Positions 33,291 to 39,935 of a stretch of 64,000 bases of DNA are shown one piece after another. The stretch covers positions 62,001 through 126,000 of the forward strand of contig CANRLR010000004.1 of NCBI GenBank assembly GCA_947631505.1, written 5' to 3'. The position numbers were made by a program, and so were the translations under genes. The DNA is from an uncultured Lachnospiraceae bacterium. GTDB lineage: Bacteria; Bacillota; Clostridia; Lachnospirales; Lachnospiraceae. The stretch's first letter is position 1, and every line of letters starts with the position of its first letter. The notes beneath the pieces are model-generated. The model was given only the letters and a program-made list of their open reading frames with translations. It was not told the origin of the DNA and made no database searches.

Positions 33291-33318
33291 ACATATTTAA
33301 AAATCCACTGCATAAAAT
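33291..33318 (+). promoter_or_regulatory. Sigma-E-like promoter of spoIIID
   Basis: ACATATT, 13 bp, CATAAAAT resembles the sporulation mother-cell sigma-E consensus (ATATT around -35, CATAcaAT at -10). Bacillus spoIIID is a sigma-E gene. It lies about 28 bp upstream of the spoIIID start. Confidence 0.5.
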
Positions 33319-33345: not shown

Positions 33346-33582
33346 TTGCAGGAGTATTCATACCCAACAACACCAATTGAGGAACGGGCGGTTATGGTTG
33401 CTCAGTATATTGTGGAACATAATGCTACCGTGCGGCAGGCGGCAAGTCAGTTTGGCGTTAGCAAGAGTACGGTACATAAAGATGTCACAAAAGGGAACGG
33501 TTTGGAATGCTGGGCTGGATTTGGAAGTGGTATAAAAAGTAAAAAATGTTTAACTTGCAGTATAGTCCATTTTCATATATAG
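33346..33582 (+). CDS. spoIIID: spoIIID, 5' part, interrupted by insertion
   Basis: SpoIIID is a mother-cell DNA-binding regulator of sporulation. Codons 1-48 match its N-terminal two-thirds of the HTH region (YIVEHNATVRQAASQFGVSK, then STVHKDVT). After the 18-bp repeat the frame enters foreign sequence and stops at 33582, giving a 78-aa chimera that lacks the C-terminal basic region. The start is TTG with AGGGGGAG upstream. Joining at the repeat to 39798-39935 yields a 93-aa protein, the same length as Bacillus SpoIIID. So the gene is disrupted in this DNA but not decayed. Confidence 0.9.
   Translation: MQEYSYPTTPIEERAVMVAQYIVEHNATVRQAASQFGVSKSTVHKDVTKGNGLECWAGFGSGIKSKKCLTCSIVHFHI
33472..33489 (+). 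repeat. attL core: left copy of the 18-bp direct repeat
   Basis: GTACATAAAGATGTCACA occurs here and again at 39780-39797. It encodes VHKDVT of SpoIIID in the correct frame in both places. Identity ends abruptly on both sides. Confidence 0.92.
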
Positions 33583-33620
33583 TAATAGTATCCCAAAACT
33601 GTTTCAGGAGGTGATAGGTT

Positions 33621-35864
33621 ATGAATCGAAATATGTTCTTTAAGTCATCATGGATTTTTTTCCTTTTGCTCCTGTGCAGTACCTTGATTTTACCGCTGGA
33701 TGTATTTGCCGCACCAGCGGGCACGGAAAATACAACAATAAAACTATCAGAGGAAGAAATAGCCTATCGTGACCGGGTGGGTGAAATTACGATAGGATGT
33801 CCGATTCAAAATTGTCCTTTGCTTTTTCAGAATGAAAAAACAGGACAACTTGAAGGCATTACCATTGATATTCTGAATCTGATATCGGAAGAAACCGGTC
33901 TTGCATTCCGCTATCAGGCACTGCCATCCGGAAGTATTACATACAAGGATTTGCAGCGGTTTGGTATTGATATGGTCGCAGGTGTGGAGTACAATGAGAT
34001 TAATAAGCATTCTTCTGGCATTGCCATGACAGACCCCTATTTACATGACGAAAAAGTATTCGTGTGTAAAAAAGGAGTGGTATTCCAGCCGGATAGCAAA
34101 ATGATTATTGCTGTTGATTCCGGTTCACAGACGATTGAAAAAGTTGTCCGGCAACAGTATCCGATGTTTGAGATTTTATTTTGTGACTCCGAAGAGGATG
34201 CATTATCTGCACTGCTTTCCGGAAAAGCAGACGCTGTTCTGCAGAACCAGTACACAATCGAAAGGATTTTGTGCAAGCCCATTTACCAAGATTTACAGAT
34301 TGTGGCTGCGGCATCGATTGGTGACAGCCAGTGTCTTGCCTGTCTCGTACCCATTAATGATGACAAGCAAAATTTTATATCCGGCGATATCTCACATCTC
34401 CTGTCCATTTTAAATAAAGGCATTGCCAATCTTGACAAGAATCAGGTCTCTTTTCTCATTATTAAAGAGACAGCCGATAATACCTATCAGTTTACTATAT
34501 GGGATATGATGTACCGATATCGTTTTGCAATGACCATCATACTCATCAGCCTGTTGTTGATTTTTGTTCTGTTGCGCAAAAACCATTTATTGCATCAAAA
34601 ACACTCGGAGCAAATGGCGGCCCAGCAGCGTGCAAAAGAATTGGCAGCTATCAATGCACACATGAAAGAACAACAGCTCCTTCTCATGGACTCTCTGAAA
34701 CATGCAGAGGAAGGAAATCGTGCAAAAACGTCCTTCCTGTTTAATATGTCGCATGATATCCGTACCCCGATGAATGCTATTTTAGATTATACAGAAATCG
34801 CCCAACGCAGTATAGACGATACTGCCAGACTAGCAGACAGTATCGAGAAAATTCAGGTATCCGGTAAACATCTGCTGCATTTAATTAATAATGTTCTGGA
34901 TATGGCAAAGATTGAGAACGGAAAGGTTACGTTGACGGAGAATTGCTGTAATCTCGAAGAATGCATCGAAAAGGTCCGGGATATTCTACAGACAGAAATT
35001 GACAAAAAACGTCTCATATTTCAGACGGATACGTCAGCCGTAAAAAATAAATGGGTCTACTGTGACAATATGCATGTAAATCAAATTCTGTTCAATCTCT
35101 TAAATAACGCTATAAAGTTTAGCAAGCCGGGCGGCAGTATTTTGATTACGCTGAGTCAGAAAATGTGTGCCATTCAGGAATATGCCACGTATGAGATACA
35201 TGTAAAGGATACCGGTATTGGAATGCCGCCAGAATTTTTGTCGCGTATATTTGAACCGTCTGAGCGGGAACATGACTCTACCATGAGCCGGACACAGGGC
35301 CTTGGTCTCGGTATGTCCATTACGAAAAACCTCATTGATCTGATGGATGGTACCATTGAGGTATTTAGCGAGCCTGATAAGGGGACTGAATTCGTTCTGC
35401 AGTTTACTTTCAAATTGAAGGAGCAGGAACAGGTACAGCCGGAACAGCAGCCTTCCATCGAGACTGCATTGGCAAATGATTTTTCCGGTAAACGTCTGCT
35501 TCTGGTTGAAGATAATGAACTGAATATGGAAATTGCACAGGAACTTCTCTGTGAGGTAGGCTTTACGGTAGAGACAGCTCAAAACGGACAGATTGCTGTA
35601 GAAATGGTCCGAAACTCTACAGCGGGCTACTATGACGCCATACTGATGGATATCCAGATGCCGGTCATGAATGGCTATCAGGCTTCCCGGGAAATCCGCA
35701 GCCTTGAGAACAAAGAACTGGCTGAAATCCCGATTATTGCACTGACTGCAAATACTTTTGACGAAGACAAAAAGGAAGCTCTGTCAAACGGCATGAATGC
35801 TCATGTTGCGAAACCAATTGACGTCAAGGTGTTGTATGAAATACTGAGAAAAATTTTGAAATAA
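33621..35864 (+). CDS. Hybrid sensor histidine kinase (SBP-like sensor, HisKA, HATPase, REC)
   Basis: The 747-aa protein has a signal/first helix (residues about 10-30), a periplasmic-type solute-binding (SBP_bac_3-like) sensor (about 50-290), a membrane helix (MTIILISLLLIFVLL), a coiled coil, HisKA with phosphorylated His in NMSHDIRTPMN, HATPase with N box FNLLNNAIKFS and DTGIGM / GLGLGMSI, and a C-terminal receiver with Asp in AILMDIQMPVMNG. It lies inside the spoIIID element and is probably cargo. Two terminators follow it. No HPt or output regulator is in the element; the HPt protein at 20.6 kb is one possible partner. Confidence 0.93.
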   Translation: MNRNMFFKSSWIFFLLLLCSTLILPLDVFAAPAGTENTTIKLSEEEIAYRDRVGEITIGCPIQNCPLLFQNEKTGQLEGITIDILNLISEETGLAFRYQALPSGSITYKDLQRFGIDMVAGVEYNEINKHSSGIAMTDPYLHDEKVFVCKKGVVFQPDSKMIIAVDSGSQTIEKVVRQQYPMFEILFCDSEEDALSALLSGKADAVLQNQYTIERILCKPIYQDLQIVAAASIGDSQCLACLVPINDDKQNFISGDISHLLSILNKGIANLDKNQVSFLIIKETADNTYQFTIWDMMYRYRFAMTIILISLLLIFVLLRKNHLLHQKHSEQMAAQQRAKELAAINAHMKEQQLLLMDSLKHAEEGNRAKTSFLFNMSHDIRTPMNAILDYTEIAQRSIDDTARLADSIEKIQVSGKHLLHLINNVLDMAKIENGKVTLTENCCNLEECIEKVRDILQTEIDKKRLIFQTDTSAVKNKWVYCDNMHVNQILFNLLNNAIKFSKPGGSILITLSQKMCAIQEYATYEIHVKDTGIGMPPEFLSRIFEPSEREHDSTMSRTQGLGLGMSITKNLIDLMDGTIEVFSEPDKGTEFVLQFTFKLKEQEQVQPEQQPSIETALANDFSGKRLLLVEDNELNMEIAQELLCEVGFTVETAQNGQIAVEMVRNSTAGYYDAILMDIQMPVMNGYQASREIRSLENKELAEIPIIALTANTFDEDKKEALSNGMNAHVAKPIDVKVLYEILRKILK

Positions 35865-35888
35865 GCATAGTAGACAGTCACTGATATC

Positions 35889-35915
35889 GGCTGCCCGGCA
35901 ACGGGCAGCCTTTTT
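35889..35915 (+). terminator. Rho-independent terminator after the hybrid kinase
   Basis: GGCTGCCCG, loop GCAA, CGGGCAGCC, then TTTTT. A very stable stem with a tetraloop. Confidence 0.9.
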
Positions 35916-35949
35916 ACTGTATAGGAAAGTCCGGCATTTGCGGAGCTGG

Positions 35950-35978
35950 AGCGTCGGTTTTTCACGACGCTTTTTTTA
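35950..35978 (+). terminator. Second tandem terminator
   Basis: AGCGTCG and CGACGCT flank an eight-base loop and are followed by a T-run. It insulates the recombinase unit from the kinase. Confidence 0.8.
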
Positions 35979-35992
35979 TAGTTTAAGCAATG

Positions 35993-36021
35993 GAATATTT
36001 CCGTTTATTTCATCATAATTA
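35993..36021 (+). promoter_or_regulatory. Sigma-E-like promoter of the recombinase unit
   Basis: GAATATT, 14 bp, CATAATTA fits the mother-cell sigma-E pattern and resembles the site before spoIIID. It lies 32 bp upstream of the small ORF that overlaps the recombinase. Confidence 0.5.
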
Positions 36022-36053
36022 TGAAACATCAAAGATTATAGGAAGTGATATGG

Positions 36054-36254
36054 ATGAAAAAAAGGAAACTTATCTATCGGTTTCATAATCCAAACCCGGA
36101 CAAGGTCATGGAAACTTACATACAGCAAATGATGATTCATAATGGTGTGGATCAAGTCTTTCGTATTCTTACAGAATGTCGGGAACAGGAATACGAAAGG
36201 GAGGGGGGAACAAAGAATGAACATTGCAGCGTATTGCCGTGTGTCGACCGATAA
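36054..36254 (+). CDS. Small 66-aa protein overlapping the recombinase; possible directionality factor
   Basis: The product begins MKKRKLIYRFHNPNPDKVME and is predicted mostly helical. AGGAAGTG lies upstream of the ATG; a GTG nine bases earlier is an alternative. Its 3' end overlaps the recombinase gene by 38 bp, so the two are cotranscribed and coupled. Small proteins starting with a similar YHNPN-like stretch precede serine recombinases in other clostridial elements, as far as I recall. The function is unknown; an excision (directionality) factor is a reasonable guess given its place and size. Confidence 0.65.
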   Translation: MKKRKLIYRFHNPNPDKVMETYIQQMMIHNGVDQVFRILTECREQEYEREGGTKNEHCSVLPCVDR

Positions 36255-37731
36255 AGAAGACCAGTTGAACAGTTTGGAGACCCAGAAAAAGTTTTTTGGA
36301 GAATATGCAGAAAAGAATGGACATGCTTTGGTCCGACTGTATGCGGATGAGGGAATTTCAGGTACGAAGACAAAAAATCGAAAGCAGTTTTTACAATTAA
36401 TGCAGGATGCCAATACACATTCGTTTGACATGCTGGTCGTGAAAGATATTAGCCGCTTTGCCAGAAATACGGTGGATTTATTGCAAAATGTGCGTACCTT
36501 AAAAGCGTTAGGGATTGAAACGTTATTTTTGACTGCGAACATGACGGTGCTTGGACAATCTGAATTTGTACTGACTATTTTCGGGGCTTTGGCACAGGAA
36601 GAATCTGCTAATATGAGCAAGCGTGTAAAGTTTGGTAAGAAGGAAAATGCAAAAAAAGGAAAAGTTCCGAATCTTGTTTATGGTTACAACAAAACGAAAG
36701 GAGATTATTTTCATCTGACCATCAATCAGCGTGAAGCGGAAATTATCCGCCAGATCTACCGCTGGTATATTCAGGAAGGGTATGGGACTGCCAAGATTGC
36801 CAATATGCTGAATGAACAAGGTGAGCGGACCAAACGGGGATGTACATTCAGCCAGAATGCCATAAGCCGGATTCTGACTAATGAGATTTATGTTGGAAAA
36901 ATTATCAATGGCAAAGAGGAGGTTACAGATTTTCTGACTGGAGTAAGGCAGGCAAAGGATTCGGAGGATTGGATGATTATGGACAGGCCGGAGCTTCGGA
37001 TCATATCAGACGAAGAATTTGAAAAGGCAGGAAAGATACTGGAAGCAAGAAAGGCGGCCTTTCATATCAATCACGAACGGCATAGTAACCAATATCTTTT
37101 CAGTACGCTTATTAAATGCAAAGCTTGTGGCTGGTCGTTCCGTCGTGTGATTCGGAAATATAAAAACACATATATAAAATGGGTGTGTTCCGGGCATAAC
37201 GGGAGGGGGGCGGACAGTTGCCCCAATGCGATTGTGCTGGACGAAAACGAGTTGATTCAGCAGATTGACACATACTTACAGGACATGGTAAAAAACGAAG
37301 CGGAATTGGAAAAAATGATAAAGAGTGCATTCATTAGAAAGTACAAGTCCACTAATGACAATGAAAAATATCGTGAGGATCTGGAAGAGAAACTGCAAAA
37401 GTATCAACGTACCAGACAAAAGTATATGGATATGTATGCAGATGATTTAATCAGTCGTGAAGAATTGAAAGAGGCAATCGGCGATATGAAAGATAAGGTC
37501 ACTGAGATTGAGAGCGAACTGAATTTTGTAAATCAGAATTTGGACAAGGGAGATAAACTGGATCATATGTTCAAAAAACATATCCGGGAAATCAAAACGA
37601 TAACGTCGATTCGGGATATGAGCAATATCCAATTGAAGAATATCATCGAACGCATTGAAGTTGACCATGAGGGAGCGATTGACATTTATTTGAGAATGCT
37701 GTCAGATATTGGATTGAATAGGATGATTTGA
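36217..37731 (+). CDS. Large serine recombinase
   Basis: The 504-aa protein has the resolvase/invertase catalytic domain (nucleophile Ser in AAYCRVSTDKEDQ, Arg residues in VVKDISRFARNTVD), the Recombinase domain (about 150-260, with GYGTAKIANMLNEQG), a zinc-ribbon region (CKACGWSF, with CSGHNGRGADSCPN), a coiled coil (about 370-440) and a C-terminal region. GGGAGGGGGG precedes the ATG at 36217. It is of the same class as SpoIVCA and SprA, which excise elements from sporulation genes in Bacillus. It is the evident candidate for inserting and excising the spoIIID element. Confidence 0.94.
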   Translation: MNIAAYCRVSTDKEDQLNSLETQKKFFGEYAEKNGHALVRLYADEGISGTKTKNRKQFLQLMQDANTHSFDMLVVKDISRFARNTVDLLQNVRTLKALGIETLFLTANMTVLGQSEFVLTIFGALAQEESANMSKRVKFGKKENAKKGKVPNLVYGYNKTKGDYFHLTINQREAEIIRQIYRWYIQEGYGTAKIANMLNEQGERTKRGCTFSQNAISRILTNEIYVGKIINGKEEVTDFLTGVRQAKDSEDWMIMDRPELRIISDEEFEKAGKILEARKAAFHINHERHSNQYLFSTLIKCKACGWSFRRVIRKYKNTYIKWVCSGHNGRGADSCPNAIVLDENELIQQIDTYLQDMVKNEAELEKMIKSAFIRKYKSTNDNEKYREDLEEKLQKYQRTRQKYMDMYADDLISREELKEAIGDMKDKVTEIESELNFVNQNLDKGDKLDHMFKKHIREIKTITSIRDMSNIQLKNIIERIEVDHEGAIDIYLRMLSDIGLNRMI

Positions 37732-37825
37732 AATAATTTGTTTTGTAAATGAAATGTTTTGTGGTAAAATATGTGTAGAAAAAGCAGAAGGAAGGACAGT
37801 GTGGTGCTTCGGAATGGAGGATAAA

Positions 37826-39754
37826 ATGAAAAAAATATGCAGCAGCATGATAAGTTTGTTTTTTGTGCTGACTTTTGTCAGCGTAGTGACAATGAAAGAC
37901 GATGTATCGGCAACGTGTAAAAGTGGAATAAAGAACAATGGTCTGGGTGGGATATTCATCGATATTAATTCGGAACCTTATACGAGTTTTGATCCAGAGT
38001 ATGCTTACGGTGGTGTTGTAGCATGGTTTACTTCAGCAAGGGTAAAGCATTTGACAGGAAAGGGAGATGTCAGCCGTTCTGGTGTGAATTGGTGGAATAA
38101 TGCAGATTCATATGGGTTCAGTAAGGGATACACTCCTCAGGCACCTGCCATTATATGCTGGAAAAGCGGTCAATCTGCTATTCTTGAGAAGATAGAAGGC
38201 TCCACTGCTTATATCAGTAGAACGGGAGACAGCAGCTTAACGGATAAAGACCACGGATATACGGTTATCCAGCAGGTAAGCGTTTCTTCCATCGAGTCTT
38301 TGGGTTCAGATTTTCTGGGGTACTTATATCTTCCTTCCCTTGGAGGAAATAATCCAAATGGAACGGTAGATGCTATAACCGGACAACCTGGTAAGATAGC
38401 AGTAAGCGGCTGGGCATTTGATCAGGATAACGTGCAGGCTTCATTGGAAATTCATGTATATATTGGTGGACCGGCCAGTTCGTCAGATGCAGAATGTCAC
38501 GTGATAAAAGCGGACAAATCGAGAACAGATGTAAATACTGCCCACCCGGGAGTGGGAAATAATCATGGTTTTAGTGAAGTGATTTCCACGAACAAAACCG
38601 GGAATCAGGCTGTATATATCTATGCAAAGAACGTTGGAGGCGGTAAAAATCAGGAGCTTGGGCATAAAACGGTGAGCATTACACCAACGTATATTCCTCA
38701 GGGTTCACTTGATTCAGTGACGCCTGTTCCGGGCGGTGTGAGAGTAAAAGGCTGGGCATTTGACAGAGATGATCTTAAGACCTCTTTGGAAATTCATGTA
38801 CATATAGCTGGTAAGTTCGTAGGTACATTAAAAGCAGATAGGGAGAGAAAAGATGTAAATAAGTTACATGGCTGTGGCGATTATCATGGATTTGACGGAA
38901 CGTTGAAGACATCACTGACGGGAAGCCAGCAAGTAGATGTATACGCGAAAAACATTCTTTATGGAGCCAGTAACTTAAAGCTCGGAAGTAAAACGGTAAC
39001 GATATATAAAGATGATTGTACTGACCCTTCCGGACATTCTTATAGTAAAACACCGGTAATCAAACCGGCAACAACAAGTGCAGACGGATCAGTATCATAT
39101 TACTGTAATAACTGTAAAAAGGCGAAATCAACGACGATAGCGAAAATAAATGAAGTCAGCCTTTCTGCTGCTTCATTTACCTATTCAGGTTCAGTCCAGA
39201 AACCTTCCATCCGTGTAATGGACAGTGACGGAAAAGAAATTTCAGACAGTAACTACACCGTTACCTATTTAAATCCGCAATCATGTGAGGCGGGAACTTA
39301 CTCTTTGACGGTTTTATTTAACGGGAATTATTCAGGAAGTATTACGAAGTCATATGAAATTACGAAAATAAAGCAAGACGATAAGACCGTTTCGGGGGAA
39401 AGTTCAAAAGAAAACCAAAAGTCAGGCTCAAAGGGAAGTCTGACGGTGACGAATAAGGCCGGAAAAAGTAAGAAAATAAAAATGGGCCGTATCAAGGTTA
39501 AAAATAAGAAAAGAAAACGAGTGAAGGTTTCATGGAAAAAGTTATCCAAAGTAACCGGATATCAGATTCAATATAGTGTAAATAAAAAGTTTAAAAAGGC
39601 GAAGAATGTAAGCACGAAAAAAGGCAACTATACGATTAAGAAATTAAAAAAGAAAAAGACGTATTATATTCGAGTCCGTGCCTATAAAAAGAACGGTAAA
39701 AAGAAGATTTACGGGTCATGGAGTAAAGTAAAAAAGGTAAAAATAAAGTATTGA
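37826..39754 (+). CDS. Secreted protein with degenerate CHAP domain, two surface repeats, Big-like and fn3 regions
   Basis: The 642-aa protein has a signal peptide (about 1-28) and a CHAP-like domain (about 40-165). Where active CHAP enzymes have YAYGQCTWF and SGHVAI, this one has YAYGGVVAWF and SGQSAI, so both catalytic Cys and His appear lost. Two repeats follow (about 178-285 and 290-395), each with GWAFDxDxxxxSLEIHVxI and a YAKN segment. Then come a Big/MBG-like region (FTYSGSVQKPSIRV) and a lysine-rich fn3 domain. It probably binds wall or surface material rather than cutting it. The stop lies 25 bp before the right repeat, so it is element cargo. GGAGG precedes the ATG at 37826. Confidence 0.8.
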   Translation: MKKICSSMISLFFVLTFVSVVTMKDDVSATCKSGIKNNGLGGIFIDINSEPYTSFDPEYAYGGVVAWFTSARVKHLTGKGDVSRSGVNWWNNADSYGFSKGYTPQAPAIICWKSGQSAILEKIEGSTAYISRTGDSSLTDKDHGYTVIQQVSVSSIESLGSDFLGYLYLPSLGGNNPNGTVDAITGQPGKIAVSGWAFDQDNVQASLEIHVYIGGPASSSDAECHVIKADKSRTDVNTAHPGVGNNHGFSEVISTNKTGNQAVYIYAKNVGGGKNQELGHKTVSITPTYIPQGSLDSVTPVPGGVRVKGWAFDRDDLKTSLEIHVHIAGKFVGTLKADRERKDVNKLHGCGDYHGFDGTLKTSLTGSQQVDVYAKNILYGASNLKLGSKTVTIYKDDCTDPSGHSYSKTPVIKPATTSADGSVSYYCNNCKKAKSTTIAKINEVSLSAASFTYSGSVQKPSIRVMDSDGKEISDSNYTVTYLNPQSCEAGTYSLTVLFNGNYSGSITKSYEITKIKQDDKTVSGESSKENQKSGSKGSLTVTNKAGKSKKIKMGRIKVKNKKRKRVKVSWKKLSKVTGYQIQYSVNKKFKKAKNVSTKKGNYTIKKLKKKKTYYIRVRAYKKNGKKKIYGSWSKVKKVKIKY

Positions 39755-39757
39755 AAT

Positions 39758-39769
39758 ACCGTTCCCTTT
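39758..39769. repeat. Right inner arm of the attP inverted repeat
   Basis: ACCGTTCCCTTT is the exact reverse complement of AAAGGGAACGGT at 33490-33501, which lies just inside the left core. In the circular form the two arms are 28 bp apart around the core. Confidence 0.85.
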
Positions 39770-39779
39770 CCCCACTACT

Positions 39780-39797
39780 GTACATAAAGATGTCACA
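39780..39797 (+). repeat. attR core: right copy of the 18-bp direct repeat
   Basis: GTACATAAAGATGTCACA, identical to 33472-33489, in frame with the SpoIIID C-terminal part that follows. Confidence 0.92.
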
Positions 39798-39935
39798 GAG
39801 CGTTTACTGCGGATTAATCCTTCTTTAGCAGCCCAAGCAAGAAAAATACTGGATATTAATAAATCCGAGCGTCATATAAGAGGAGGATTGGCAACGAAAG
39901 ATAAATATTTGAGGGAAAAACACCACTTGGGATAG
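39780..39935 (+). CDS. spoIIID: spoIIID, 3' part (no start codon)
   Basis: The frame reads VHKDVTERLLRINPSLAAQA and continues through KILDINKSERHIRGGLATKD to a TAG stop at 39933-39935. This matches the SpoIIID C-terminus, including the conserved INP, HxRGG and ATK elements and the basic helix that contacts DNA. There is no start or ribosome site, so it is silent unless joined to 33346-33489. The open frame is intact, arguing that selection still acts on the joined gene. Confidence 0.9.
   Translation, partial: VHKDVTERLLRINPSLAAQARKILDINKSERHIRGGLATKDKYLREKHHLG

Follow-up and report, generated by a model that had tools for sequence, protein, structure and literature searches.

How does a bacterium obtain SpoIIID when the gene encoding it lies on the chromosome in two pieces? 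SpoIIID stands above sigK in the mother-cell cascade of sporulation (PMC5025042). In the window, the 64,000-nucleotide stretch of a Lachnospiraceae genome analysed here, spoIIID is interrupted after codon 48 by an element of 6,308 bp. As judged from its sequence, this is very probably a spoIIID-intervening, skin-like element that the mother cell cuts out, at the regulatory step before sigK.

The interrupted gene and its att sites

The 5' part of spoIIID (codons 1–48, HTH region; 33346..33489) starts with TTG behind an AGGGGG ribosome site, and the 3' part (codons 49–93 and the stop codon; 39798..39935) lies beyond the element, both on the + strand. A SigE-type promoter, ACATATT-N13-CATAAAAT (33291..33318, +), can be read ahead of the gene and presumably serves it; this promoter architecture is common to the intact spoIIID loci of relatives. 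Without excision, the 5' frame continues to 33582, which gives a protein of 78 aa. Truncated SpoIIID is presumably inactive. Joining the two ends yields a 93-aa SpoIIID that scores 124.8 bits with TIGR02844 (cut-off 111.5), versus 56.9 and 70.9 bits for the separate pieces in the window genome. No third TIGR02844 match was found in this genome (2.74 Mb, 49 contigs, 99.7% complete), nor a second intact spoIIID, which the sequence-only reading had named beforehand as refuting evidence. The joins were in frame and free of stops, as far as they could be read, in 17 of 18 elements. These came in two batches: in the first, all 8 joins held (ten further ones being listed there as missing), and in the second, 9 of 10 did; the failing join belongs to L128, for which the 5' anchor coordinate was wrong and which is the same locus as L084.

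The ends of the element are marked by an 18-bp direct repeat, GTACATAAAGATGTCACA, whose two exact copies form the cores of attL (33472..33489, +) and attR (39780..39797, +) at a distance of 6,308 bp; a wider alignment extends it to 22 nt at 95%, with the same spacing of 6308. The repeat is spoIIID coding sequence, and it occurs at the same codons, with at most 3 mismatches, in 14 of the 20 intact loci of the genus. A 39-nt stretch at attR had no further match in the window, and none of 100 shuffles matched.

On the element side, the direct repeat is bordered by a perfect 12-bp inverted repeat, composed of AAAGGGAACGGT (33490..33501, +) and ACCGTTCCCTTT (39758..39769, +), and the spacing is equal in relatives. 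These are the right and left arm, respectively, of a predicted 52-bp attP, obtained by joining the left side of attR to the right side of attL, with perfectly inverted 12-bp arms and CA at its centre. In 18 elements of which both ends were read, on average 8.9 of the outer 12 attP positions were paired (range 5–12) around the same centre, while the matching attB sites paired at 3.3 of 12 on average, versus 3 expected. L125 is an exception, with more pairing in attB (7) than in attP (6). Many relatives carry the arms ACCGTTCTA/TAGAACGGT; the window has ACCGTTCCC/GGGAACGGT, altered alike on both sides. The attP pattern expected of an excised circle was searched for in public viral contigs and was not found there.

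The element encodes four genes, all on the + strand. The first is a hybrid sensor histidine kinase of 747 aa (33621..35864) with SBP_bac_3, HisKA, HATPase_c and Response_reg domains, a cargo gene that could have an influence of its own on entry into sporulation. It is followed by a 66-aa ORF with an HNPN motif (36054..36254), which overlaps the start of a large serine recombinase (LSR; 36217..37731, with P0001 running from its third residue) that has Resolvase, Recombinase and zinc-ribbon domains. The first 52 residues of the small ORF had no match in Pfam or NCBIfam. The fourth gene, between the LSR and attR, is cargo encoding a secreted-type protein that shows similarity to fn3 and, weakly, to CHAP (about 37826..39754, also given as 37754-39754). 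This gene of ~2 kb separates the LSR from attR, where most relatives have less than 200 nt, and the window LSR itself is about ten residues shorter at the C-terminus than its relatives. Hence, the window copy could be altered. Searches with Pfam found no phage structural match among the four genes and no relaxase in the element, and neither Mob_Pre nor RepA_N. Thus far, the sequence-only reading has held: the two spoIIID parts on one strand, the shared 18-bp repeat, the in-frame restoration of a 93-aa protein and the LSR were all recovered as it had described them.

Spread of the element and retention of sporulation genes

When genome contigs were scanned for the window LSR, 60 loci were found, in Lachnospiraceae, Oscillospiraceae and other hosts to judge from record titles. 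In 50 of these, the 3' half of spoIIID lies at most 200 nt from the LSR end. At L086 it lies 1,951 nt away. Contigs end at the junction in L052 and L060, the latter showing the beginning of the 3' half, and 193 nt beyond the LSR in L078. At L080, L090, L091 and L097, no spoIIID 3' half was found near the LSR. Cultured strains among the relatives that share this split are Clostridium fessum SNUG30386 (L084), Angelakisella massiliensis (L050) and Pseudoflavonifractor sp. Marseille-P3106 (L049). In L043 (at about 11533) and L057 (at about 11535), the same LSR and attR arm are joined to sequence other than spoIIID, which indicates that the element can also integrate elsewhere.

Within the genus, 20 of 39 genomes have spoIIID above the cut-off, 6 have pieces only and 13 have none. 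LSRs more than 60% identical to that of the window occur in four genus genomes, with spoIIID split in all four, and in 0/20 intact and 0/13 spoIIID-less genomes. Two of the six partial-only genomes, G014 and G023, have no LSR above 60%; the LSR of G023 is cut by a contig end.

In a family sample of 396 genomes, 259 match TIGR02844, 226 of them above the cut-off. Partial-only spoIIID was found in 28 genomes from many genera (both halves in 20, a single half in 7, and an odd break in G135), a class that was assigned by reading the best E-values, with four weak matches set aside and one further genome in no class, and that includes G135 and G331 although they are not clean splits. The four weak matches (G046, G085, G152 and G186) were dropped as partial-only genomes, because their best matches score 21–28 bits and fall in frames that are 343 to 492 aa long, and because none of them has SpoIVA. 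In a class sample of 393 genomes, 285 match spoIIID and 227 exceed the cut-off. Re-reading of 16 partial-only genomes gave 11 with both halves and 3 with one half, while G637 and G695 combine a 3' half with a doubtful 5' match containing stops.

Two genomes have unusual arrangements. G013 contains two different spoIIID 3' halves (L034, L035), each behind the same kind of LSR end, and thus has two elements or is a mixed bin. In the single-contig genome G548 (L178, L179), ~65 kb separate the two halves. Its LSR lies by the attL end and points the opposite way; this may be a large, phage-like element of the family.

Retention of SpoIVA suggests that split genomes are still equipped for sporulation. 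SpoIVA was found in 6/6 partial-only and 19/20 intact genus genomes (the miss being 68% complete), and in 0/13 spoIIID-less ones. The joint absence of spoIIID and SpoIVA in these 13 of 39 genomes suggests that the genus lost sporulation repeatedly or early. In the family, where the control genomes were taken from the top of the listing and not at random, SpoIVA was present in 26/27 partial-only genomes (the miss being G420), 20/20 intact genomes, 3/20 spoIIID-less genomes and 0/4 weak matches. The window genome has SpoIVA and a one-piece sigK-like gene, with a frame of 226 aa and a score of 281 bits; the cut-off of 298.65 was reached by no searched genome.

Stop codons were absent from 76 distinct spoIIID 3' halves and 28 distinct 5' halves, although halves were selected by similarity, so that decayed copies may be missed. 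Median pN/pS was 0.33 for 3' and 0.24 for 5' halves, versus 0.13 and 0.19 for intact genus genes, in sets of unequal breadth with saturated synonymous sites. When each was compared with its nearest intact relative, changes were absent or all silent in G036 and G023. In the window, the 3' half differs by 18 silent and 2 non-silent codons, and the 5' half by 10 and 3; the two 3' halves of G013 differ by 15 and 5 and by 17 and 7, and the 5' half of G014 by 14 and 3. The 3' half of G033, with 13 silent and 17 non-silent codons, counts against undecayed halves. Overall, the claim that the halves are undecayed agrees with the lack of stops in relatives, and a non-sporulating host with a 3' half decaying in relatives, which would have refuted the sequence-only reading, is unsupported by the genes kept in the window genome and by the stop-free halves.

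Other LSRs target the same gene. In L125 and L130, an LSR of 44% identity is found at the same spoIIID codons, while in L132, L139 and L140, with LSRs of 23–31% identity, the junction lies a few bases downstream in spoIIID. At class level, the LSRs targeting spoIIID are 31–62% identical. In addition, sigK looks split in two of the partial-only genomes, as far as the contigs can tell. The 5' and 3' pieces of sigK in G023 (L173, L174), which also has both spoIIID halves, lie on separate contigs and have GATGTATCGACAATG in common; the 3' piece is preceded by a different LSR-like frame with weak (22%) LSR similarity. In G013, the genome with two spoIIID 3' halves, the 5' piece of sigK (L175) enters a very similar element end, and its 3' piece was not seen. 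The apparent split point in all three loci is GTATCGACAATG. These would perhaps be two rearrangements in one cell line. The sigK gene of G033 was left out of this count, as its 5' piece reaches the contig edge. We see an even chance that spoIIID is a recurrent integration site in Clostridia, where several LSR lineages came independently under mother-cell control as a switch above sigK, and that in G023 and G013 two serial excisions form a two-step genomic timer.

The element family looks mobile, since near-identical LSRs occur across genera, in records of Christensenella, Angelakisella and Pseudoflavonifractor, and since L050 encodes a Mob_Pre relaxase and RepA_N proteins. The window copy looks like a small member without transfer genes, to judge from its gene content. 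The LSR tree left out L031/L038, the closest full-length kin of the window LSR (71%), and therefore we make no claim on the branch of the latter. LSR kin were found neither in plasmids nor, at the sensitivity of the scan, in viral contigs. The sole match in a phage collection was MT838016.1 (L172, 'Bacteriophage sp.'). It was rejected as a free circle, because it is a linear record in which attP was not found and the LSR is followed by a spoIIID 3' half; it is probably a fragment of a bacterial chromosome.

A possible mother-cell switch and its alternatives

The small HNPN ORF is our candidate for a recombination directionality factor. It is present in 56 of 58 distinct elements, a set with LSR identity of at least 55% and at least 300 nt upstream; this set excludes 22 loci whose upstream part is short or whose LSR start is lacking, as well as three duplicates. 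At LSR identities of 44–47%, it occurs in one of three elements. In some elements it is located kilobases away from the LSR.

Many small ORFs are preceded by the motif ATATT/CTATT-N14-CATAG, which resembles the spoIIID promoters of the hosts. A generic SigE consensus yielded little: at most 1 of 100 shuffles was as good in 1 of 25 stretches and at most 8 of 100 in 3 of 25, and for the window site 50 of 100 shuffles scored equally well. A matrix built on 19 intact host spoIIID promoters took its place and matched at p ≤ 0.05 in 26 of 40 small-ORF upstream stretches, with a median p of 0.018 over the 40 and mostly at a fixed position; these p-values are relative to random pieces of the same loci, and the elements, being related, do not count as independent cases. 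The window is counted among the 26 (p 0.017) through a match elsewhere. At the usual place it has a possible SigE-like site, GAATATT-N14-CATAATTA (35993..36021, +), whose position upstream of the small ORF fits that in relatives and whose -10 is poor.

From these observations, we infer the following course of events. In vegetative cells and in the forespore, spoIIID would remain split and give the N-terminal fragment only. After asymmetric division, SigE would activate spoIIID and, in most relatives, the small ORF of the element. With the small protein as its directionality factor, the LSR would then recombine attL with attR at CA within GTA-CA-TAAAG, and the element would leave as a circle. 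In-frame spoIIID would thus be restored in the mother cell, which is to die anyway. SpoIIID and the downstream transcription of sigK would be delayed until excision, and the element may in this manner time or gate SpoIIID production.

An alternative explanation might be that an ordinary integrative mobilizable element merely uses spoIIID as its site and is excised randomly at a low rate, which would leave sporulation impaired or heterogeneous instead of timed. The transfer proteins of L050, similar frames in L049 and L084, near-identical LSRs in different families and the insertions of L043 and L057 outside spoIIID all point in this direction, as do the excised forms of the yin element, which were detected at all times (PMC10747680). 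However, SpoIVA is retained in partial-only genomes, the SigE-like site ahead of the small ORF is mostly fixed in position, the halves are free of stops, and the Pfam search found no relaxase in the window element. We therefore regard this explanation as rather unlikely, though clearly ahead of the two below. One of these assumes a lineage in the course of losing sporulation, where a recent insertion has simply inactivated spoIIID. The 13 genus genomes that lack both spoIIID and SpoIVA show that sporulation is often lost in this genus, yet the window genome kept SpoIVA and its sigK-like gene, the halves have no stops, and partial-only genomes recur in 28 of 396 members of the family across many genera, which makes such an insertion quite improbable.

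The other is that the split is an artefact of assembly or annotation, or that the two pieces encode separate proteins. In G023 and G061 the halves are indeed on two contigs, but they share one contig in the window, G036, G231 (a single-contig genome), G316, G059 and others, which largely refutes this reading, and the attP geometry recurs among elements. The 5' frame, moreover, ends within a few codons of the junction in most elements (the window, L061, L067 and L123 being exceptions). The chance that either applies is close to negligible. An element excised in the mother cell remains the reading that we prefer.

If this is true, about a tenth of the sampled family genomes that carry spoIIID (28 of ~255) need to cut their chromosome to pass the SpoIIID step, and genomes with split spoIIID may appear spoIIID-defective to predictors based on gene presence.

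Comparison with known intervening elements

The sporulation genes named as split in PMC6957869 and PMC10747680 are sigK, spoIVFB, spoVR, spsM, gerE, spoVFB and yabG, of which yabG was added, and spoVFB named as a split gene, in PMC10747680. An interrupted spoIIID was not described in the titles and opening lines of abstracts among the open-access papers listed, a scope outside which subscription papers and preprints fall; this agrees with the sequence-only reading, which knew of no such case. PMC12888040 mentions a difference in spoIIID, of a kind not specified there, between two Anaerostipes hadrus strains that are unlike in sporulation.

Several known systems resemble the window element in that excision rejoins a sporulation gene, namely SP-beta in spsM, vfbin in spoVFB and yin in yabG (PMC4191935, PMC10747680, PMC6957869). 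However, these have other targets and are phages or phage-like. Furthermore, yin was reported as unique to one strain (PMC10747680), in contrast to the widespread family of spoIIID elements. Integrative mobilizable elements with serine integrases are matched by L050, with its Mob_Pre and RepA_N proteins, and differ from the window element, in which Pfam found neither. The gin element in gerE of B. cereus ATCC 10987 is likewise a non-prophage element in the gene of a small mother-cell transcription factor, with a serine recombinase and an accessory factor (PMC5595907). Yet, gin is 28.6 kb long and has three recombinases, whereas the window element has one LSR in 6.3 kb.

Another close parallel in design is skin in sigK of B. 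subtilis and C. difficile, also an LSR element in the gene of a mother-cell regulator that is restored in frame. Unlike skin, the window element has no phage structural gene according to Pfam, and its target is spoIIID, one step higher than sigK. In C. difficile, expression of the small directionality factor CD1234 needs both SigE and SpoIIID (PMC5025042). The switch in the window could not await SpoIIID, because excision itself would make SpoIIID. This is the main conceptual difference from CD1234, and it raises the question of how excision would be timed without dependence on SpoIIID, unlike in C. difficile.
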